The position numbers and the translations under genes are program-made. From Holdemanella porci (GTDB lineage: Bacteria > Bacillota_I > Bacilli_A > Erysipelotrichales > Erysipelotrichaceae), in contig NZ_JAHQVB010000009.1 in NCBI RefSeq assembly GCF_019052655.1, positions 1 to 46,945 of the forward strand: a DNA stretch of 46,945 bases. The letters run 5' to 3'. Of the stretch, positions 3,156 to 24,423 are shown in pieces. A model generated the notes under the pieces. The model ran no database searches. It worked only from the letters and a program-made list of their open reading frames with translations, and had not been told where the DNA came from. How positions within the stretch are numbered: position 1 is the first letter of the stretch; every line of letters begins with the position of its first letter.

Positions 3156-3249
3156 GTTACAGATTGATAATAATGTCACATATAAGTGTTTTAGTGCATA
3201 TTGTCCAATATTTGTGCTAAAATTTTAAGAAAGTTTTGGAGGGATTTTT

Positions 3250-4185
3250 GTGGAAAATTTATTATTTAGCCTAAATGCAACGATTCCCATCTTTCTATTG
3301 ATGGTTGTCGGTTATTTCTTAAATAAAATCAATGTGTTGGATGACATACTGGCATCGAAATTAAATTCATTTGTCTTTAAAGTATCATTGCCACTATTGT
3401 TGTTTGTCGATGTGTCTAAATCTAATTTTAAAGATCTTTGGGATACAAAGTTTGTCGTATTTTGTGTTGTATCTACTCTAATTAGTATTCTATTATCTAT
3501 ATTATTTTCATTGCGATTAAAAGATAAAGCGATTCAAGGTGAATTTATTCAAGCTTGTTACAGAAGCAGTGCTGCCTTATTAGGACTTGCATTAACATCA
3601 AATATTTATCCAGATGTAGGTGTTGCCCCATTGATGTTGATGAGTGTTGTATTTGTTTATAACGCAGTATCTGTTGTGATTCTATCTTTCTTTAAGGCTG
3701 AACAATCGAAGGTTGATTATAAGAAAACATTCATTGGAATTTTAAAGAATCCACTAATTCTAGGTATTGTGATAGGTGTACTTGTTAGTATATTACCGTT
3801 TAAACTGCCACAAGTCATCAATAAAACAATTTCTATGATTGCAAGTACGGCAACACCACTAGGTTTAATGGCGATGGGAGCTATTTTTGATTTTGATCAG
3901 GCGAAAGGAGAATTGAAACCATCTTTATTTTGTACATTTATGAAATTAATTGGTTTTTGTACGATCTTCTTACCAATTGCAGCTTTATTAGGATTCAGAA
4001 ATCAAGCCTTAGTTGCGATTTTGATTATGTGTGGTTCAAGTACAACCGTATCTGGTTTTGTGATGGCTAAAAGTATGGGACATAAAGGTGTTTTAACATC
4101 AAGTGTTGTGATGCTGACAACATTGCTTAGTGCTTTCAGTATTACATTCTGGTTAACGATATTAAAATCGTTTGGATTGATTTAG
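3250..4185 (+). CDS. AEC-family (auxin efflux carrier type) permease
   Basis: This 311-residue membrane transporter has about ten hydrophobic segments in two halves, as in the AEC/MdcF/YfdV family. Those proteins move small organic anions such as malate or malonate, or other metabolites. The opening IPIFLLMVVGYFLNKINVLDD and the second-half ATPLGLMAMGAIFDF are typical. The start is a GTG preceded by TGGAGGG; no upstream ATG fits. An extended -10 (TGC then TAAAAT, 3218-3223) lies about 27 nt upstream. The gene is divergent from fucO. The substrate cannot be read from the sequence. It precedes an amino-acid ABC operon that has its own promoter. Confidence 0.85.
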   Translation: MENLLFSLNATIPIFLLMVVGYFLNKINVLDDILASKLNSFVFKVSLPLLLFVDVSKSNFKDLWDTKFVVFCVVSTLISILLSILFSLRLKDKAIQGEFIQACYRSSAALLGLALTSNIYPDVGVAPLMLMSVVFVYNAVSVVILSFFKAEQSKVDYKKTFIGILKNPLILGIVIGVLVSILPFKLPQVINKTISMIASTATPLGLMAMGAIFDFDQAKGELKPSLFCTFMKLIGFCTIFLPIAALLGFRNQALVAILIMCGSSTTVSGFVMAKSMGHKGVLTSSVVMLTTLLSAFSITFWLTILKSFGLI

Positions 4186-4216
4186 TTGACCTAAAGTTCA
4201 CTTTAGGGTGTAGAAT
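4186..4216 (+). promoter_or_regulatory. MerR-family-type promoter with operator in a 19-bp spacer
   Basis: TTGACC (4186-4191) and TAGAAT (4211-4216) are 19 bp apart. The dyad CCTAAAG-TTCA-CTTTAGG (4190-4207) runs from the -35 box into the spacer. Over-long spacers with an internal dyad are the signature of MerR-family activated promoters, and the CTTAAAG-N4-CTTTAAG operator of B. subtilis AdhR is very similar. No T run follows, so it is not a terminator. No merR gene lies in this window. Confidence 0.7.
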
Positions 4217-4243
4217 AGTATAAAGATTTTAGGGAGGGAAAGA

Positions 4244-4900
4244 ATGGAATTGTTTTTAGAATCATTCCCAAAGATATTTATTTCGGGAATTGTAATGACA
4301 TTACCTTTGGCAGTCATTTCTTTTGTTCTAGCTATGATATTGGCCATTTTTTGTGCCTTGATACAATATGCGAAAGTTCCGGTTATGAAGTATGTTGTTC
4401 AATTCTATATTTGGATATTTAGAGGAACACCTATGCTTGTACAATTATTTATTATGTATTTTGGAATGCAATCGATTGGCGTGAGAATATCGGCTATTAC
4501 GGCAGCGATTATTGTATTTTCATTAAATACAGGCGCTTATTGTGCAGAAACCATTCGCGGATCGATTGAAAGTGTACCACAAGGACAAATGGAAGCCGGA
4601 CTATGTGTAGGAATGAGCTATATGCAGATTATGATGCATATTATTTTACCGCAAGCTTTTCGAAGTGCATTTCCATCATTGTTTAATAACTTGATTTCAC
4701 TTGTAAAAGATACGTCTTTAGCTGCGAATATTACAGTTACAGAAATGTTTATGCAGACCGAAAGGATTGCAGGAAGAACTTATCAGTTTATGCAGTTATA
4801 CATAGAAGTGGCTTTAGTTTATTTGATTTTCTGTACAGTTTTAACTTGGCTGCAAGCTTGGGGTGAAAAGAAGCTGAATTATTATCAGGCAGGGAGATAG
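4244..4900 (+). CDS. Polar amino-acid ABC transporter permease
   Basis: This 218-residue inner permease belongs to the HisM/GlnP/TcyB family, with four to five membrane spans. The family start is seen at FRGTPMLVQLFIMYFG. The cytoplasmic EAA loop that contacts the ATPase reads EAGLCVGMSYMQIMMHIILPQ, including the conserved Gly. It is the first gene of a permease-ATPase-binding-protein operon (4244-6428) with gaps of only a few bases. The promoter upstream has a MerR-type layout. The substrate is unknown; a cystine or modified-cysteine role is possible given the neighbouring M20 hydrolase, LysR and met genes. Confidence 0.92.
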   Translation: MELFLESFPKIFISGIVMTLPLAVISFVLAMILAIFCALIQYAKVPVMKYVVQFYIWIFRGTPMLVQLFIMYFGMQSIGVRISAITAAIIVFSLNTGAYCAETIRGSIESVPQGQMEAGLCVGMSYMQIMMHIILPQAFRSAFPSLFNNLISLVKDTSLAANITVTEMFMQTERIAGRTYQFMQLYIEVALVYLIFCTVLTWLQAWGEKKLNYYQAGR

Positions 4901-4903
4901 AGT

Positions 4904-5644
4904 ATGGCTTTATTAGAAATTAAAGATATTCATAAATCATTTGGGAATTTAAATGTTTTGAATGGAATAGATCTTACGGTCAATAAAGGAGATGTCATTG
5001 CGATATTAGGTCCTTCAGGATCGGGTAAGACAACTTTGCTTCGCTGCATTAATTATTTAGAGACAGCTGATGCAGGGACTATGATTTTTAATGGAAAATC
5101 TTATGATTTATCGAATACATCAAAGAAGGATGTTGCCCAGCTTAGAAAGTATACGGGATTTGTATTTCAAAATTACAATTTATTTGCGAATAAGACAGCC
5201 CTACAAAATGTAACATTAGGTCTTACTGTAGCGCGAAATGTTTCTAAAGAAGAGGCCAATGTGATTGGTATGCAGATGCTTGAAAAAGTAGGAATGAAAG
5301 ATCTTGCGACTCATTATCCTTCACAATTATCGGGTGGACAACAACAGCGTGTCGCAATCGCAAGAGCTTTGGCAACAAATCCAGACATTATTTATTTTGA
5401 TGAACCGACTTCAGCTCTTGATCCAGAGTTGATTCAAGAAGTTTTAAGTGTTATGAAAACACTGGCTAATGAAGGAATGACTATGGTTGTGGTCACGCAT
5501 GAGATGGCTTTCGCGAAGAATGTTTCTAGTCATGTGATTTTAATGGAAAAAGGAAAAATTGTTGAAGAGGGCAGTTCAAAGAATTTCTTTGAAAATCCGA
5601 AACAAGAACGAACAAAAGATTTTTTAAGGAAAGAGGAAATGTAA
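4904..5644 (+). CDS. Polar amino-acid ABC transporter ATPase
   Basis: This 246-residue GlnQ/HisP-type ATPase energises the permease encoded just upstream. Walker A GPSGSGKT is at 36-43. The Q loop sits in VFQNYNLF, the signature is LSGGQQQR, Walker B is [12 protein letters not shown], and the switch His is in VVTHEM. The length is normal for the family. It begins 3 nt after the permease stop and ends 1 nt before the binding protein start, so the three are co-translated. Confidence 0.95.
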
Positions 5645-5645
5645 G

Positions 5646-6428
5646 ATGAAAAAATTATTAGCAAGTTTATTAAGTACGGCTATGGTTTTTACTTTAGCAG
5701 GATGTGGATCAAGTAAGGATCATTTAGCTACGATTCAAGATAAAGGTGAAATCACAATTGGTTTAGAAGGAGATTGGCAACCATTCTCTTATCATAATAA
5801 GGATGATAAATTGATGGGTGTTGATGTGGAAGTCGCTAAGAATATTGCCAAGAAATTAGGTGTAAAAGCCAATATTGTGGAAGGCAAATGGGATGGATTA
5901 TTAACTGGATTATCAACGGGTACGTATGATTTAGTTATTAATGGTGTCGATATCACAAAGGAAAGAGAAAATAAATTTGATTTTTCTACACCTTATGCGT
6001 ATGATCATACAGTCTTAGTTGTTCGTAATGATAATACGACAATTACTTCGTTTGATGATTTAAAAGGAAAGACAACTGCCAATTCGATTGGATCTACCTA
6101 TATGGAATTGGGTGAAGACTATGGGGCAACTGTAAAAGGTGTTGATGATTTAACGAAATGTATGGATCTTGTAAAGAGTGGTGGTGTGGATGCGACAATC
6201 AATGCAGCTACTTCAATCAATGATTATCTTCAGACGACAAAGGATAGTTCATTTAAAATTGTTGATCAATCTAAAGAATCTACCCCCTATGCCATCCCAA
6301 TGGTAAAAGGGGATGATAATGCCTCTTTAAAGAAAGCTGTAAATAAGGCTTTAAAAGAACTAAAAGAAGATGGAACTTTATCTAAGATTTCTATCAAGTA
6401 TTTTGGTGAGGATCTAACGAAAGAATAA
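5646..6428 (+). CDS. Amino-acid-binding lipoprotein of ABC transporter
   Basis: This 260-residue family 3 extracellular solute-binding protein has a lipoprotein signal peptide (residues 1-19) with lipobox LAGC and Cys20 as the lipid anchor. The ligand-binding fold starts at GEITIGLEGDWQPFSYH and includes the family motif GFDVEVAK-like VDVEVAKNIAKKLG. It should capture a polar amino acid outside the cell for the permease and ATPase encoded before it. The hairpin and T run directly after the stop close the operon. Specificity is not readable. Cystine-type binding proteins share this overall pattern. Confidence 0.93.
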   Translation: MKKLLASLLSTAMVFTLAGCGSSKDHLATIQDKGEITIGLEGDWQPFSYHNKDDKLMGVDVEVAKNIAKKLGVKANIVEGKWDGLLTGLSTGTYDLVINGVDITKERENKFDFSTPYAYDHTVLVVRNDNTTITSFDDLKGKTTANSIGSTYMELGEDYGATVKGVDDLTKCMDLVKSGGVDATINAATSINDYLQTTKDSSFKIVDQSKESTPYAIPMVKGDDNASLKKAVNKALKELKEDGTLSKISIKYFGEDLTKE

Positions 6429-6451
6429 GCGGCTATGCCGTTTTTCTTTTT
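6428..6451 (+). terminator. Intrinsic terminator of amino-acid ABC operon
   Basis: A short GC stem CGGC/GCCG with loop TAT (6431-6441) is extended by A-T pairs and followed by a T-rich tract. Confidence 0.75.
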
Positions 6452-6498
6452 GCTTGAAATATAAAAATAATTTATAACTAGATATAAATAAATAGAAT

Positions 6499-6527
6499 TT
6501 GAATATAGCAATTGTTCTTTGTACAAT
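6499..6527 (+). promoter_or_regulatory. Promoter of the M20 amidohydrolase gene
   Basis: TTGAAT (6499-6504) and TACAAT (6522-6527) are 17 nt apart, placing a start site near 6534. Confidence 0.65.
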
Positions 6528-6555
6528 AGACTCAACTTTTAGGAGGAACTATTTT

Positions 6556-7761
6556 ATGTCAGAATTAAAGAATCAAATTTCTCAATTTATAGATACAAAC
6601 GCAAAAGTATATCAAGATATTTCTTTGGCTATTCATGCCAAGCCAGAAGTTAGTGACTTTGAATATTTTGCTTCTCAAACCTTGAGTGAACAATTAAAAA
6701 AAGAAGGCTTTGAGATTGAATTACCAGCGGCAGGACATCGTACAGGCTTTGCGGCAACCTACAAAAGTAATAAACCAGGTCCTACGGTTGTTTTTCTAGC
6801 AGAATATGATGCTCTTGCAGGTTTAGGCCATGGATGTGGACATAATGTGTTTGGTGCTACTTCTTCTCTTGCTGGTGCTGCTTTAAAAAGTGTCGTGGAT
6901 CAAATTGGTGGAGAAGTACGTGTATATGGTACGCCTGGAGAAGAGGGTGGACAAAATGGAAGTGCCAAAGGTTCTTTTGTGAAGAAGGGATATTTAAAAG
7001 ATGTGGATTTTGCCTTATGCGTGCATCCAGGCTCAGGTCCAGAAGATGGATTAAGTACGCGTAATTATGCATGTGCACCTGTAGATATTGAATTTTGGGG
7101 AAAACCGGCGCATGCAGCAGGATGTCCTCAAGATGGAATCAATGCGTTGGATGCGCAGATCTTAACTTATGCAGCCATTGGTGTTTTACGACAACAACTA
7201 ACAGATCGCATTCGTATTCATGGTGTGATTGTTGATGGGGGAACAGCTCCCAATGTCATTCCAGAATACACAAAGGCCAAATATTATATTCGAGCTGCCG
7301 ATATTGATACGTTGCATGAGTTATATGAAAAAGTAGAGAATATTGTGAAGGGTTCCGCTTTACAGACGGGTTGTACATCGAGTATGAAGTTGTATCAAAA
7401 TCTTGTAGAAAATATGGTTTTAACACCTTCTTTAGATGCAATCTATGAAAAATATATTACAGAACTTGGCAATACTGTAAAACATGTAGAAGATGTGGTC
7501 ATGCCTGGAAGTAGTGATGTGGGTAACATTAGTCAGGTTGTACCTACGATTCAGCCACATATTAGTATTACAGATGTACAGATTGCAGGGCATAGTCAAG
7601 ATATGGTCAATGCTTCATGTAGTCAAAAGGCAATGGATGCGATTGTCAAAGGTGCAAAAGCATTGGCTTTTACGGCACTCGAATTATTTGAAAATCCAGA
7701 AGAACTTGCGAAAGTGAAAGAGGATCATACTTGGCATGTAGAACATCAAAAAGAGAATTAA
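6556..7761 (+). CDS. M20-family metal-dependent amidohydrolase
   Basis: This 401-residue cytosolic hydrolase is of the M20 (PM20D2/AbgB-like) type. Such enzymes cleave amide bonds of N-acyl amino acids or unusual dipeptides. Zinc-site motifs are visible: EYDALAGLGHGCGHN near residue 80-95, GTPGEEGGQNGSAKG near 130, and CVHPGSG near 155. A dimerisation domain begins at APVDIEFWGKPAHAAGCPQDG. The ATG at 6556 follows AGGAGG at 6541-6546. A more upstream frame-open start lies inside the promoter and is rejected. Its position between an amino-acid ABC operon and a LysR gene suggests it processes the imported substrate. A B. subtilis parallel exists in cysteine-derivative salvage operons, but this is inference. 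Confidence 0.88.
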   Translation: MSELKNQISQFIDTNAKVYQDISLAIHAKPEVSDFEYFASQTLSEQLKKEGFEIELPAAGHRTGFAATYKSNKPGPTVVFLAEYDALAGLGHGCGHNVFGATSSLAGAALKSVVDQIGGEVRVYGTPGEEGGQNGSAKGSFVKKGYLKDVDFALCVHPGSGPEDGLSTRNYACAPVDIEFWGKPAHAAGCPQDGINALDAQILTYAAIGVLRQQLTDRIRIHGVIVDGGTAPNVIPEYTKAKYYIRAADIDTLHELYEKVENIVKGSALQTGCTSSMKLYQNLVENMVLTPSLDAIYEKYITELGNTVKHVEDVVMPGSSDVGNISQVVPTIQPHISITDVQIAGHSQDMVNASCSQKAMDAIVKGAKALAFTALELFENPEELAKVKEDHTWHVEHQKEN

Positions 7762-7774
7762 TTATTTTACGCTT

Positions 7775-7804
7775 AAAGGGCTTTTCAAGCTCTTTTATTT
7801 TATG
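7775..7804 (+). terminator. Intrinsic terminator of the M20 gene
   Basis: AAAGGGCTT and AAGCTCTTT form a 9-bp stem with one G-T pair and loop TTC, followed by a T-rich tail. Confidence 0.8.
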
Positions 7805-7809
7805 GAATC

Positions 7810-7837
7810 TTGAAAATCAACAAATATTCATTAAAAT
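7810..7837 (+). promoter_or_regulatory. Probable promoter of the LysR gene
   Basis: TTGAAA (7810-7815) and TAAAAT (7832-7837) are 16 nt apart, upstream of the AAAGGAG ribosome site. Confidence 0.55.
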
Positions 7838-7860
7838 TATATAAATAAAGGAGACTGAAA

Positions 7861-8781
7861 ATGACGCTTCAACAATTACTTTATGTATTAACGGTGTCAG
7901 ATGAGAAATCTATGAATAAGGCGGCTGAAAAGCTTTTTGTGTCTCAGCCTACTTTAACGTCTGCCATTCAATCACTTGAAAAAGAACTGGATATTCAAAT
8001 CTTTAATCGTACAAGTCATGGAGTCACTGTGACGCAACAAGGACAAGAGTTTTTAACATACGCAAGACAGTTGTACCAACAATATGAATTGTTAAAAAAT
8101 CGCTATGAAGATGTAAGCTTACGAAGAAATAAGTTTCGTGTTTCGTGCCAGCACTATTCATTTGCGACCAAAGCATTTGTGGATACAGTGAAGAAGTATG
8201 GGACTTCCAAATATGATTTTGCGATCAGTGAAACTAAGACGATGCATGTTATTGAGGATGTAGGTAATTCTTTAAGTGAGATAGGAATCTTATATTTATC
8301 CAACTATAATCGTCGTTTTATGATGAAACAATTTGATGAGTGGAATTTAGAATTTCATAAATTAGCGGATTGCGATGCCTTTGTGTATTTGTATAAGGGG
8401 CATCCTCTTGCTAATAAAAAATCAATTACGTATGAAGAATTATTGCCATATCCAAATATGACTTTTGATCAAGGGGATAATCCTTCGATGTATACGGCAG
8501 AGGAGATATTGGTTGAAAATGAATTTCCAAGAAAGATTCAAGTGAATGATCGTGCTACGATGCTGAATTTAATGAGAGGACTGAATGGATATACTTTATG
8601 TTCTGGAATTATTAGTCGTGATTTGAATGGGGATGACTATGTAGTTGTGCCTTATGAAGCGAATGTAGAGAATCCCAATTCTATGATGGAAATTGGGTAT
8701 ATCACAAGGAAAAATACAGTGTTGAGTGAGATTGGTAGTACGTATATTCAAACGATGAAGGATTATTTTAGTAATAAATAA
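7861..8781 (+). CDS. LysR-family transcriptional regulator
   Basis: This 306-residue regulator has an N-terminal winged helix-turn-helix (about 3-60), with SMNKAAEKLFVSQPTLTSAIQSLE as the recognition region. The C-terminal effector domain (about 90-300) has the periplasmic-binding fold. The general type resembles the streptococcal CysR/MetR group and B. subtilis YtlI, which govern sulfur amino-acid genes; that similarity is judged by eye. It sits between the amino-acid ABC/M20 block and metNIQ and could control either or both. AAAGGAG precedes the ATG. An A/T hairpin spans its stop (8770-8792) without a T run. Confidence 0.9.
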   Translation: MTLQQLLYVLTVSDEKSMNKAAEKLFVSQPTLTSAIQSLEKELDIQIFNRTSHGVTVTQQGQEFLTYARQLYQQYELLKNRYEDVSLRRNKFRVSCQHYSFATKAFVDTVKKYGTSKYDFAISETKTMHVIEDVGNSLSEIGILYLSNYNRRFMMKQFDEWNLEFHKLADCDAFVYLYKGHPLANKKSITYEELLPYPNMTFDQGDNPSMYTAEEILVENEFPRKIQVNDRATMLNLMRGLNGYTLCSGIISRDLNGDDYVVVPYEANVENPNSMMEIGYITRKNTVLSEIGSTYIQTMKDYFSNK

Positions 8782-8811
8782 AATTTATTACTGCTTCAAA
8801 AATTTAACAAT

Positions 8812-8840
8812 TAGACAATAGCTAAACCTTCTTGTAGAAT
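8812..8840 (+). promoter_or_regulatory. Promoter of the met operon
   Basis: TAGACA (8812-8817) and TAGAAT (8835-8840) are 17 nt apart. The start site would be near 8847, only a few bases before the leader peptide's ribosome site. That leaves no room for a SAM riboswitch or T-box ahead of the leader ORF. Confidence 0.75.
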
Positions 8841-8865
8841 ACAAACATGCAAGGAGGAAACGAAA

Positions 8866-8949
8866 ATGAAAACAATGATGATGTCAATGATGCAAATGTA
8901 TATGTTAAAAAATGTGACCCGGTTTTCAATTCGTTTGTCGCTTATTTAA
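8866..8949 (+). CDS. Methionine-rich leader peptide of metNIQ
   Basis: This 27-codon ORF is preceded by an optimal AAGGAGG (8851-8857). Eight of its first 13 residues are Met: codons 1, 4, 5, 6, 8, 9, 11 and 13. The remainder reads LKNVTRFSIRLSLI and then TAA. It ends 10 nt before an intrinsic terminator that precedes the methionine transporter genes. By analogy with the His, Trp and Leu leader peptides of attenuated operons, ribosome stalling at the Met codons under Met-tRNA shortage would favour antitermination. The ORF, ribosome site and terminator are seen directly; the control mechanism is inferred. I do not recall a described Met-specific leader peptide of this kind in Bacillota. Confidence 0.85.
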   Translation: MKTMMMSMMQMYMLKNVTRFSIRLSLI

Positions 8950-8965
8950 GTGTGTGATTGCCGGG
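8918..8965 (+). promoter_or_regulatory. Candidate antiterminator of the met leader
   Basis: CCCGG (8918-8922) can pair with CCGGG (8961-8965), and CAAT (8927-8930) with ATTG (8957-8960). This uses the 5' arm of the terminator, so the two structures exclude each other. The first arm begins 13 nt after the last Met codon, just outside a ribosome stalled there. TGAAAAC (8867-8873) can alternatively pair with GTTTTCA (8922-8928), a possible pre-emptor when no ribosome is bound. Confidence 0.55.
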
Positions 8966-8985
8966 GAAATACCTCGGCTTTTTTT
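8960..8985 (+). terminator. Attenuator terminator before metN
   Basis: GCCGGGG and CCTCGGC form a 7-bp stem (one G-T pair) with loop AAATA, followed by seven T. It lies between the leader peptide and metN, where a terminator makes sense only as a conditional one. Confidence 0.9.
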
Positions 8986-9005
8986 GTTAGATTGGAGTGT
9001 TATAA

Positions 9006-10052
9006 ATGATTAATATAGAGCATTTAGATAAAACCTATCATTTAAAGAATGCAGACGTACATGCCGTAGATGATGTTTCACTACATATTGAAAGTGGGCA
9101 AATCTATGGGGTGATTGGATATTCTGGTGCTGGTAAAAGTACTTTGGTTCGATGCTTGAACTTTTTAGAGATTCCAGATTCTGGAAGTATTGAAATTGAA
9201 GGATTTGGAAAAGTAAGTGCAAATCAAGGAAGTTTAGATATAAGTCAAAAGAAATTAAGAGAGTTAAGACGATCCATAGGAATGATCTTTCAACATTTTA
9301 ACTTATTAGATCGAAGCACTGTATTTGATAATGTGGCGTACCCATTAAAATATACGGGGTTATCAAAGAAAGAAATTGAGACTCGTGTGGATGAATTATT
9401 AGATCTTGTGGATTTGGCAGATAAAAAATACGTGTATCCATCACAATTATCTGGTGGACAAAAACAGCGTGTAGCCATCGCAAGAGCCTTATCAAACAAT
9501 CCTAAGGTGTTACTTTCTGATGAAGCAACTTCTGCTTTAGATCCAGATGCGACAGAATCCATTCTAAAGTTATTGAGGGATTTAAATAAAAGATTAGGAA
9601 TAACAATTATCTTGATCACACATGAAATGAGTGTGATTAAATCTATCGCAAATCGTGTGGCAGTTATGGAGAATGGTAAGGTTGTTGAAGAAGGAGATGT
9701 ATATGATATCTTCGCCAATCCTAAAGAAGAGATTACCAAAAAATTTATCAACTCGTCTTCTGCATTATCGAATATTACGAAGTTGATTGAGAATAAGACA
9801 ATTATTCCTGCAGATAGTAAATTAGTTAAACTTACATTCACTAGAGATAGTGTTGGTAATGCAACCATTTCAAAAATATCTCGTGAATATAATGTGGATG
9901 TAAATATCATGTTGGCTAACGTGGATGTCGTTAATGCGGATGCTTTGGGTGGCATTATTGCTTCAATTGAAGGGACTAAAGAAAATGTACAGCGTGCCAT
10001 AGATTTTCTACATGAATCTAATGTAAAAGTGGAGGTGATTCATCATGCCTAA
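9006..10052 (+). CDS. metN: Methionine ABC transporter ATPase with NIL domain
   Basis: This 348-residue ATPase powers methionine import together with MetI. Walker A GYSGAGKS is at 38-45, the signature LSGGQKQR starts at 148, and Walker B VLLSDEATSALD starts at 168. A C-terminal ACT-like NIL domain covers about 270-345; in this family it binds methionine and inhibits transport. That domain and the length separate MetN from other amino-acid ATPases. The ribosome site (TTGGAGTG) lies 20 nt downstream of the attenuator terminator. Its end overlaps metI by 8 nt. Confidence 0.95.
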   Translation: MINIEHLDKTYHLKNADVHAVDDVSLHIESGQIYGVIGYSGAGKSTLVRCLNFLEIPDSGSIEIEGFGKVSANQGSLDISQKKLRELRRSIGMIFQHFNLLDRSTVFDNVAYPLKYTGLSKKEIETRVDELLDLVDLADKKYVYPSQLSGGQKQRVAIARALSNNPKVLLSDEATSALDPDATESILKLLRDLNKRLGITIILITHEMSVIKSIANRVAVMENGKVVEEGDVYDIFANPKEEITKKFINSSSALSNITKLIENKTIIPADSKLVKLTFTRDSVGNATISKISREYNVDVNIMLANVDVVNADALGGIIASIEGTKENVQRAIDFLHESNVKVEVIHHA

Positions 10053-10743
10053 ATTTATAGCAGATTTTTTTCCAAATGTTGCCAATTACTGGGATATATT
10101 TTTAACAGCATTGACTGCAACGTATCAAATGTTTTTCATCGCAGGCTTGATTACATTACTAATTGGAGGTGCTTTTGGAATTTCATTGATTGTAACAAAG
10201 ACAGATGGTATTAAGCCAAATCGGATTATTCATTTTATTCTAGAAGTTATCACGAATGTGTTTAGAGCCGTACCATTTATCATCTTGTTGATTTTCTTGA
10301 TTCCGTTAACACGAAGTATTGCGGGTACTTCGATTGGAGTCAAAGGGGCTGTTGTTCCATTAGTCTTTGGAGCGGTTCCATTCTACACAAGACAAGTCGA
10401 AACGGCATTAGCGGATGTAAATCCAGGAAAAATAGAGGCCGCTAGAAGCATGGGAAGCTCAACACTAGGAATTATCTTTCGTGTTTATCTGCATGAGGCG
10501 TTACCGGATTTGATTCGTGTAACAACCATTACGGCTATTTCATTGATTGGATTAACAACTTCTGCAGGTGCAGTTGGTGCTGGTGGAATTGGTTCGTTCG
10601 CAATTAATTATGGACAAAACTTACATTATCAAGATGTTGTGAATTTATGTGTAATCTTATTATTGATCATTGTTTCGTTGATTCAATTATTGGGAAATAC
10701 ATTGTCAAAAGCAACAACGAATAAAGAATTGTTTCATAAATAA
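10045..10743 (+). CDS. metI: Methionine ABC transporter permease
   Basis: This 232-residue permease of the MetI/YaeE family has about five membrane spans. Family motifs visible are NVFRAVPFIILLIFLIPLTR, then EAARSMGSS-type EAARSMGSSTLGIIF (the ATPase-contact loop), and GAVGAGGIGSFAINYG near the C-terminus. The length is close to the E. coli protein (217 aa). Its 8-nt overlap with metN and the short gap to metQ fit one operon. AGGTG precedes the ATG. Confidence 0.94.
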   Translation: MPKFIADFFPNVANYWDIFLTALTATYQMFFIAGLITLLIGGAFGISLIVTKTDGIKPNRIIHFILEVITNVFRAVPFIILLIFLIPLTRSIAGTSIGVKGAVVPLVFGAVPFYTRQVETALADVNPGKIEAARSMGSSTLGIIFRVYLHEALPDLIRVTTITAISLIGLTTSAGAVGAGGIGSFAINYGQNLHYQDVVNLCVILLLIIVSLIQLLGNTLSKATTNKELFHK

Positions 10744-10761: not shown

Positions 10762-11681
10762 ATGAAGACAAATAAATTATTTAAAACATTTTTAACAGTA
10801 GGCTTAGTAGCTACAACATTACTTACAGGATGTTCATCAAAGTCATCAAGTGAACCTGTAAAAATTGGTATTCCAAGCGATGCCACAAATGGTGGAAGAG
10901 GGTTATTGCTTCTAGAAAAAGCTGGCTTGATTGAAGTGATGACAAGGCTGGTTGGACTCCAGAATTGAAGGATGTTACGAAGTATAAATACAATATTGAA
11001 ATTGTTCCTACACAAGCCAATACATTAGTTTCGACTTTGGATGATTTTGGAGCAGCCACAATCAATGGAACATATGCGGTTCCAGCTGGATTAAAACCTA
11101 AAAAGGATGGTTTAATTACGGAAGTACAAGAAGTAGGAAGTGATAATCCATTTATTAATGTGATTGTTGCGCGTACAGCTGATAAAGATAATGAAGATTA
11201 TCAAAAGGTAGTAAAGACATACCAAAGTCAATTGGTGGCTGAATATATTTTAGAAAAGAATAGTGGCGCTACGGTTCCTGCATTTGAATATGATGAAGAT
11301 TATACAGTCGATAAAAATTTTGTGGGCGATATTGAAGGATATCAATCAAGTTCAGATGGAAAGAAAGTTATTAAGATTGGTACTTGTGGTTCTGCCGACA
11401 CATTTAGAGCGGTACAAAAAGTATTAGATGATGAAAATTCTGGAATCTATTTAGATGTAGTTGTATTTGATGCATATAACTTACCAAATGAAGCTTTAAA
11501 TAATGGCGAAATTGATTTGAACTCATTTCAACACAAAGCGTATTTAGAAAATGAATGTGAAGCACAAGGATATGATTTAACAGCGATTGGTGATACTAGT
11601 TCTGCTCCATTAACTTTATATTCAAAGAAAGTTGATTCTTTGAAAGCATTAAAAGAATTAGCTGGTAAAAAAGAAGACTAA
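10762..11681 (+). pseudogene. metQ: Methionine-binding lipoprotein, frameshifted
   Basis: This NlpA/MetQ-family methionine-binding lipoprotein has a signal peptide and lipobox LTGC with Cys24. It begins PVKIGIPSDATNGGR and runs for about 58 codons. A frame change near 10936-10938 follows: the first frame ends at a TGA at 10966-10968, while the neighbouring frame continues D-D-K-A-G-W-T-P-E-L to the normal end (EALNNGEIDLNSFQHKAYLE). Loss of one base, for example one T from GTTGAT, explains it. All the rest of the protein is intact and normal in length. It is either a very young pseudogene or a sequencing/assembly error. If real, MetNI has lost its dedicated binding protein here. Confidence 0.9.
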
Positions 11682-24204: not shown

Positions 24205-24423
24205 AATCGAGTAAAGATAGAGGCAGCATTGCATCAGAGTAAAACATGGAGTTGGCAGACTGTGAAGTGTTTGAAAGGTAACCAATGCCGAAAGAGATAA
24301 AATGGCAATTTTATTTCTTGGGGTTATAAGGAATACTTATAACACTCCTTCGTCAGGAAGAGGCGTTATCTTATAGTTAATGAGATATTTTTTAGCTATG
24401 TGGTATGCCCGCATAGCTTTTTT
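24205..24423 (+). promoter_or_regulatory. Lysine riboswitch (L box)
   Basis: The conserved core matches the B. subtilis lysC L box: AAAGATAGAGGC (24213-24224), AGAGTA (24236-24241), GGAG, CTGTGAAG, TGAAAGG and GCCGAAAG (about 24288-24295). A terminator completes it: AGCTATGTGG/CCGCATAGCT with a 5-nt loop and six T (24394-24423). Bound lysine should promote termination, so the ABC genes downstream are expressed when lysine is scarce. Confidence 0.93.

Follow-up and report, generated by a model that had tools for sequence, protein, structure and literature searches.

Histidine leader attenuators have been described in Firmicutes (PMC9413887, PMC2965389), and one of these accounts (PMC9413887) covers the Erysipelotrichales; a Met leader is absent from the available portions of both. 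In Staphylococcus aureus, leucine/isoleucine leader attenuation of ilv has been supported by mutants (PMC5794164), and the way in which the number of control codons sets the sensitivity of an attenuator is treated in PMC1183508. For Actinobacteria, the accessible text of PMC1262725 describes leader peptides with Cys only and no obvious terminator, and no conserved RNA structure ahead of the methionine operons. The closest described system is 'metL' of Streptomyces lividans, a Met- and Cys-containing leader peptide predicted in 2021 ahead of metNIQ, for which a leaderless transcript is given and a typical Rho-independent terminator is reported missing (PMC8079986, available portion). The initial annotation of the DNA analyzed here knew of no described Met leader peptide of this kind, a statement that has to be corrected in view of metL. 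Searches of one open literature library found no Met leader in Bacillota, and none is mentioned in the available portions of PMC5171806, on the start sites of C. phytofermentans, or of PMC3766115.

The window, which is the whole stretch of 46,945 nucleotides analyzed here, carries a Met-rich leader ORF with a terminator and an alternative antiterminator ahead of metNIQ, and this observation of the initial annotation was confirmed. A predicted promoter, a ribosome site, a 27-codon ORF with eight Met in 13 codons, a terminator and then metN are all present in the sequence (Table 1). The Met codons are codons 1, 4, 5, 6, 8, 9, 11 and 13, between positions 8866 and 8904. Transcription would start at about 8847, downstream of a predicted promoter in a region where promoter-like sites occur at chance level (5 found compared with 5.1 in shuffles).

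Table 1. Predicted and observed features of the leader region and of the metNIQ genes in the window
Feature	Position	Strand	Description	Basis
Predicted sigma-70-type promoter	8812..8840	+	TAGACA (8812-8817), 17 nt, TAGAAT (8835-8840)	10/12 consensus letters
Ribosome-binding site	8852..8857	+	AGGAGG, 8 nt 5' of the leader ATG	Sequence
Leader ORF	8866..8949	+	MKTMMMSMMQMYMLKNVTRFSIRLSLI, 27 codons	Sequence, shuffles
Segment 2	8918..8930	+	Predicted antiterminator 5' strand, inside the leader ORF	Pairs with 8955-8965
Segment 3	8955..8966	+	Predicted antiterminator 3' strand and terminator 5' arm (8960-8966)	Folding
Intrinsic terminator	8960..8985	+	GCCGGGG AAATA CCTCGGC T7; 7 bp stem, 5 nt loop	Terminator scan
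metN	9006..10052	+	Methionine ABC transporter ATPase (ABC_tran and C-terminal NIL domain)	Pfam
metI	10045..10743	+	Permease (BPD_transp_1)	Pfam
metQ	10762..11681	+	NlpA-type binding lipoprotein	Pfam for 10965-11678; G001 alignment

The leader region lies between metN and a LysR-type gene at 7861-8781, its 5' neighbor. On the strand of metNIQ, positions 3250-8781 encode a Mem_trans-type permease, an SBP_bac_3 ABC binding protein, an M20 amidohydrolase and the LysR regulator, as assigned by Pfam, and this neighborhood may serve the uptake and use of sulphur compounds. The metQ gene of the window is broken, with its N-terminal and C-terminal parts in different frames, and the copy in the nearest relative (G001) is one open frame; the break may be either real decay or a sequencing error. 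Elsewhere in the window, a lysine riboswitch was found at 24210-24376 (82 bits).

The Met-rich unit is beyond chance in the window. Seven Met codons beyond the start within 13 codons were obtained in 0 of 4000 dinucleotide shuffles of 8782-9005, among which the best Met count was 5, or 3 when a ribosome site was required. Both strands of the whole window were also filtered for all 20 residues, requiring that the ribosome site match 5 letters or more, that a terminator be present and that a single residue fill 5 or more of 13 codons; 8866-8949 was the sole uORF that passed. The terminator scan of 8400-9400 returned one site, at 8960-8985, compared with 0.4 (sd 0.5) in shuffles. The overall folding of the leader region is unremarkable (z -1.5; 12 of 200 shuffles were equally low).

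An alternative pairing of 8918-8930 with 8957-8965 had also been annotated. We found it close to that place: the terminator 5' arm is engaged at 8960-8965 by CCCGGU (8918-8923), UCA (8926-8928) joins 8955-8957, and the distance of 13 nt from the last Met codon to the pairing was borne out by the pairing test. This 2:3 pairing, between segments 2 and 3, has a dG of -14.7 and a p value of 0.010-0.015 against shuffles, and the window's own arm ranks 1 of 33 among the arms of all leaders. In RNA of 8847-8968, either naked or with its 5' part held open as if by a ribosome at codon 4, 9 or 13, the antiterminator is the best structure; it is lost when all of the RNA up to 8962 is kept unpaired, as a strict model of a ribosome that has reached the stop codon. 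When the RNA is extended to 8986, with the terminator 3' arm included, the terminator and not the antiterminator is the best structure in all states tried, and in the stop-codon state it shrinks to four pairs. Since the terminator wins in these models once its 3' arm is included, the proposed switch would depend on which structure folds first while transcription proceeds, as known attenuators likewise do. In the ensemble, the pairing has a share of 0.85 with a ribosome on the first Met codons and of 0.17 in naked RNA starting 25 nt 5' of the ATG. Sequestration of the window's terminator arm by anything upstream gives p 0.18, and the protector pairing 1:2 gives p 0.21 against shuffles. The support from the window taken alone is modest.

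The nearest relative, G001, has a MetN 99% identical to that of the window and the same leader peptide (locus L081). The two genomes differ in 13 of 921 letters of the LysR gene, 16 of 1047 of metN and 10 of 699 of metI (1.4-1.5%), and the leader ORF is identical; the pair is uninformative for covariation. Outside the ORF, the promoter hexamers are identical with a different spacer between them, the terminator stem is kept with an altered loop, and a change at 8955 removes the loop-closing pair of the antiterminator. The G001 genome gives 19 matches to the T-box model at E values of 0.001 or below. It also has, on the reverse strand at about 3245-3335 (L273), a SAM-riboswitch match below threshold (36.4 bits compared with 44.4), just ahead of a metK-like gene that we take to be metK; this match lies about 9.4 kb upstream of metN, beyond the window.

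Similar units occur in other Clostridia and Erysipelotrichales. We catalogued 34 distinct units of a Met-rich uORF, a ribosome site and a terminator ahead of metN operons, the window and L081 included, by searching up to 1.6 kb upstream of metN with Cys counted at half weight. AGGAG or AGGAGG lies 5' of 27 of these leaders. The upstream regions came from 80 loci of named records (the best 80 of 582), 30 loci from 117 relatives (96 with a match), Lachnospiraceae (150 and 397 overlapping genomes) and the order of Agathobaculum (147). They were joined by a sample from the class to which L008 (Lachnoclostridium phytofermentans) belongs; the NIL family was found in 182 of its 391 genomes, and the 30 best loci and 80 further high-ranking rows of MetN size were taken. 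Of this sample, 108 upstream regions were looked at, and 9 are in the final catalogue. Of the weaker uORFs that earlier scans gave in further loci, L013, L030 and L079 were inspected and are absent from the catalogue, as are L168 and L194 of the class sample. One of these, L013 of Parasutterella secunda, ends in EMRMCMMTMVL and spans -306 to -198 ahead of metN; a terminator after it was not found. L040 of Flavobacterium hercynium, which has a Met/Cys uORF and a terminator about 130-230 nt ahead of metN and no Shine-Dalgarno site, is likewise absent from the catalogue; it hints that the leader plan may extend to Bacteroidota.

The enrichment of Met was evaluated with a detector run for 20 residues on 256 rows. 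A unit counted when its ribosome site had 4 letters or more, one residue occupied 4 or more of 13 codons (start excluded), a terminator lay within 160 nt and the unit was within 450 nt of metN; these thresholds were chosen after the first examples were known. At the level of at least 4, Met gave 21 rows (19 distinct), followed by Arg (16), Leu (13), Cys and Ser (8 each) and the others (at most 5), which is a small excess. At the level of at least 5, Met was found in 16 of the 256 rows, Leu in 4, Ser in 3 and the others in at most 1, and at the level of at least 6, Met was found in 9 (8 distinct), Leu and Glu in 1 each and the others in 0. The 4-Met detector was also run over all loci (2.68 Mb, both strands summed, with doubly fetched places counted twice), where it gave 30 matches within 450 nt of metN compared with 12 elsewhere; at 6 or more Met, the numbers were 13 and 0. 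Seven of the 12 distant matches sit further upstream of metN (L104-L106, L144, L161, L162 and L340), one is a leader whose contig is split (L310), and the rest are L010, L027, L111 and L120. Judged by eye, the leaders of L104-L106 (L104 and L106 viewed individually), which come from three genomes in another family of the order, and of L162 precede M20 amidohydrolase-metN operons, and those of L161 and L340 precede metQ-metN. A further 40 upstream regions (L346-L385; 39 of the order and L374 of the class, some ending at contig ends) gave 0 matches. A generic Met-leader pattern in eight genomes gave 2 to 33 matches per strand and genome compared with 0 to 4 for the reversed pattern; as far as they were looked at, these matches mostly lie within ordinary gene starts.

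Cys codons, one or more, occur in all 32 catalogued leaders other than those of the window and L081, in a catalogue whose selection gave Cys half weight. The wider class therefore probably responds to both sulphur amino acids, and its Cys-containing leaders are probable dual Met/Cys sensors. Among the 19 distinct Met-only detector matches in the 256 rows, L081 is the only one without Cys. Judged by its codons, the window's leader is the Met-only form and the exception in the class. In two genomes, G655 (L204/L244) and G119 (L007/L162), two metN operons each have their own Met/Cys leader, and the sequences of the two leaders are unlike.

The 2:3 pairing, taken as pairing of the region past the last Met/Cys codon with the terminator arm, was examined in 33 leaders, with L081 dropped as a near-copy. 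It reached p<0.05 against shuffles in 16 of the 33 (Fisher 7e-14), and in 14 of 26 when homologous leaders were removed (Fisher 6e-11), compared with 3 of 33 when a control region on the 5' side of the ORF was used (Fisher p 0.26). This result replaces an earlier test on 22 hand-listed leaders (11/22; Fisher 4e-14). Leaders paired better with their own terminator arm than with the arms of other leaders (Mann-Whitney 5e-13), and 10 of the own arms, the window's included, ranked first. Segment 2 begins a median of 19 nt past the last Met/Cys codon. The other 17 leaders miss p<0.05, with L007 (0.97), L244 (0.47) and L325 (0.30) missing it widely. The same check on E. coli attenuators was passed by thrL, pheL, ilvL and hisL and failed by trpL (0.14) and leuL (0.67), so that known attenuators, with four of six passing, also give a mixed pass rate.

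With a ribosome placed on the first regulatory codons, the pairing share exceeded 0.5 in 30 of the 33 leaders, although the 0.5 mark is not discriminating because the shuffled averages pass it in 32 of 33. When all upstream partners of the arm were counted, its pairing averaged 0.79 compared with a shuffled value of 0.62 (Wilcoxon 5e-8). Across the class, the 1:2 protector pairing is weak, with p<0.05 in 6 of 33 leaders (Fisher 8e-6). In naked RNA, the share exceeded 0.5 in 18 of the 33 leaders, an outcome that varies with the assumed 5' end; a reading of the switch as 'default-on', tried by folding naked RNA, hinges on that choice.

The initial annotation predicted that in related genomes the Met run, the ribosome site and both pairings would covary while the rest drifts. 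With a single near-copy of the window's leader available, the comparison drew on other lineages and used five pairs of homologous leaders (L008/L124, L134/L148, L220/L228, L104/L106 and L216/L233). The identity of the Met/Cys codon letters is 107/118 compared with 225/299 for the other codons (Fisher p 2e-4); part of this excess is due to Met having one codon and Cys two. Segment 2 is identical in 73/81 letters (p 3e-6) and the terminator arms in 46/55 and 44/51 (p 0.003 and 0.001), compared with 127/199 in the spacer; the terminator loop gives 17/25. The pair L220/L228 is an exception in the terminator 5' arm, of which only 10/16 letters are identical. In these five pairs, Met/Cys codons, antiterminator segment and terminator arms are thus kept, and the spacers and other codons drift.

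With these conserved parts, and with the pairing of 33 leaders above shuffled, mismatched-arm and wrong-region controls, the classical ribosome-mediated attenuation proposed in the initial annotation gained support. The leader region is very likely a classical ribosome-mediated transcription attenuator that uses Met as its sensing codons ahead of metNIQ. This reading is robust because the units recur ahead of metN operons in other lineages. In the proposed mechanism, the leader would be translated in step with RNA polymerase. Under Met shortage, the ribosome would stall between 8875 and 8904 for lack of charged tRNA-Met and leave 8918-8930 free to pair with 8955-8965, and transcription would continue into the genes of the importer. 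When Met is ample, the ribosome would reach the stop codon (8947-8949) and disturb the antiterminator, and the terminator would end transcription near 8985. The switch is thus predicted to regulate methionine uptake. We infer that it senses Met-tRNA and that elongator and initiator supply could be linked, as the initial annotation had suggested.

The same genomic anatomy would be expected if, instead of a shortage of charged tRNA-Met, the leader responded by nascent-peptide arrest or by sensing a small molecule such as SAM via the nascent chain, and antitermination of this type can also be driven by arrest peptides. However, arrest peptides keep residues and spacing, and across the catalogued leaders it is mainly the density of Met/Cys codons that recurs, as judged by eye; we consider this explanation improbable. 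The Met-rich ORF could also encode a functional small protein, for example a metal-binding or membrane peptide, followed by a plain terminator and adjacent to metN only incidentally. The ORF has a strong ribosome site, and Met/Cys-rich peptides can bind metals, but leaders of different lineages share little besides their Met/Cys runs (by eye), the units cluster ahead of metN operons, and the stretch of RNA complementary to the terminator arm has been kept, in L220/L228 even past the stop codon. This makes a small protein very improbable as the reason for the unit.

The preferred reading, tRNA-Met-dependent attenuation, was also considered against the RNA sensors found ahead of metN. No Rfam family is over threshold at the window's leader locus, and no T-box or SAM riboswitch is over the Rfam gathering score at any of the 34 leader loci, the window included; to our knowledge, Rfam holds no Met leader family. 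Among 29 loci from the window's family or order (L082-L110), 25 have a T-box over threshold; a leader takes its place in L104-L106, and L089 lacks both. An undescribed metabolite- or tRNA-binding RNA, with the Met run being incidental, is very unlikely: the T-boxes of related metN operons and the sub-threshold SAM-riboswitch match ahead of the metK-like gene of G001 speak for it, but besides the missing Rfam match, the leader RNA, with a predicted length of only some 139 nt, consists largely of the ORF, and Met runs recur on different RNA sequence in other lineages. Most metN loci of other Clostridia are also without an Rfam match (one T-box in one 20-locus set and none in another set), so a missing riboswitch alone does not mark a leader. 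L125-L127, L135-L140 and others, all from Clostridia, are metN loci without a leader and without a T-box or SAM riboswitch over threshold. A regular expression for T-boxes was dropped after it missed Rfam-found T-boxes in 8 of 8 scanned loci of L346-L385.

In a quick tree of 118 MetN rows, made without bootstrap, the window groups with L003 and L002 (SH-aLRT 98). These are Clostridia MAGs, both with Met/Cys leaders, and the group lies apart from the T-box rows of the window's family. It is a reasonable inference that metN, leader included, may have been transferred from Clostridia. On this tree, the leader label requires 17 changes, at least 12 of them forced by starred branches; the count is slightly inflated, as two rows, the duplicate of G001 (L273) and the G566 row split between contigs (L202), were labeled 'other'. 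The other non-leader rows were a random pick.

If the attenuator reading is correct, methionine, which is also consumed by protein starts, joins the amino acids likely sensed by leader-peptide attenuation in Bacillota, and such leaders would repeatedly stand in for Met T-boxes and SAM riboswitches upstream of methionine importer genes. A broader picture is possible, although we hold it to be doubtful when all its parts are taken jointly: a widespread class of sulphur-amino-acid attenuators, repeatedly gained and lost, would control methionine import in Bacillota and would have been overlooked because its leaders are short and mutually unlike; most would read tRNA-Met and tRNA-Cys jointly, and the window's Met-only form would couple elongator and initiator supply. 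In that case, starvation would both stall the leader ribosome and block its start, and the importer would be released either way. The system is suited to asking whether initiator and elongator Met-tRNA shortage act jointly on one switch, and how often sensors swap ahead of the same operon.

Compared with the known systems, the type of mechanism is classical; within the reach of our literature searches, both sensor and target are new to Bacillota. The thr, his, ilv, phe, trp and leu attenuators of E. coli have the same parts as the locus described here, namely a leader ORF with codon runs, an intrinsic terminator and a competing antiterminator; here, however, the sensor codons are Met, an importer takes the place of a biosynthetic operon, and the 1:2 protector pairing is weak or dependent on the 5' end. 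The available description of S. lividans metL sets it apart from the window's leader, since metL has fewer Met, is leaderless and is actinobacterial, whereas the window has AGGAGG and a terminator (PMC8079986). The Cys leaders of Actinobacteria, as far as described in the accessible text, resemble the leaders here in having codons of a sulphur amino acid in the leader peptide (PMC1262725). In S. aureus, ilv is likewise controlled by leader attenuation in a member of the Bacillota, but with branched-chain codons and with an antiterminator that pairs with the U tail of the terminator, according to the portion available (PMC5794164). The His leaders of Firmicutes, in the available portions of their accounts, have the same anatomy and use leader peptides where others have T-boxes, but with His codons and ahead of his genes (PMC9413887, PMC2965389).
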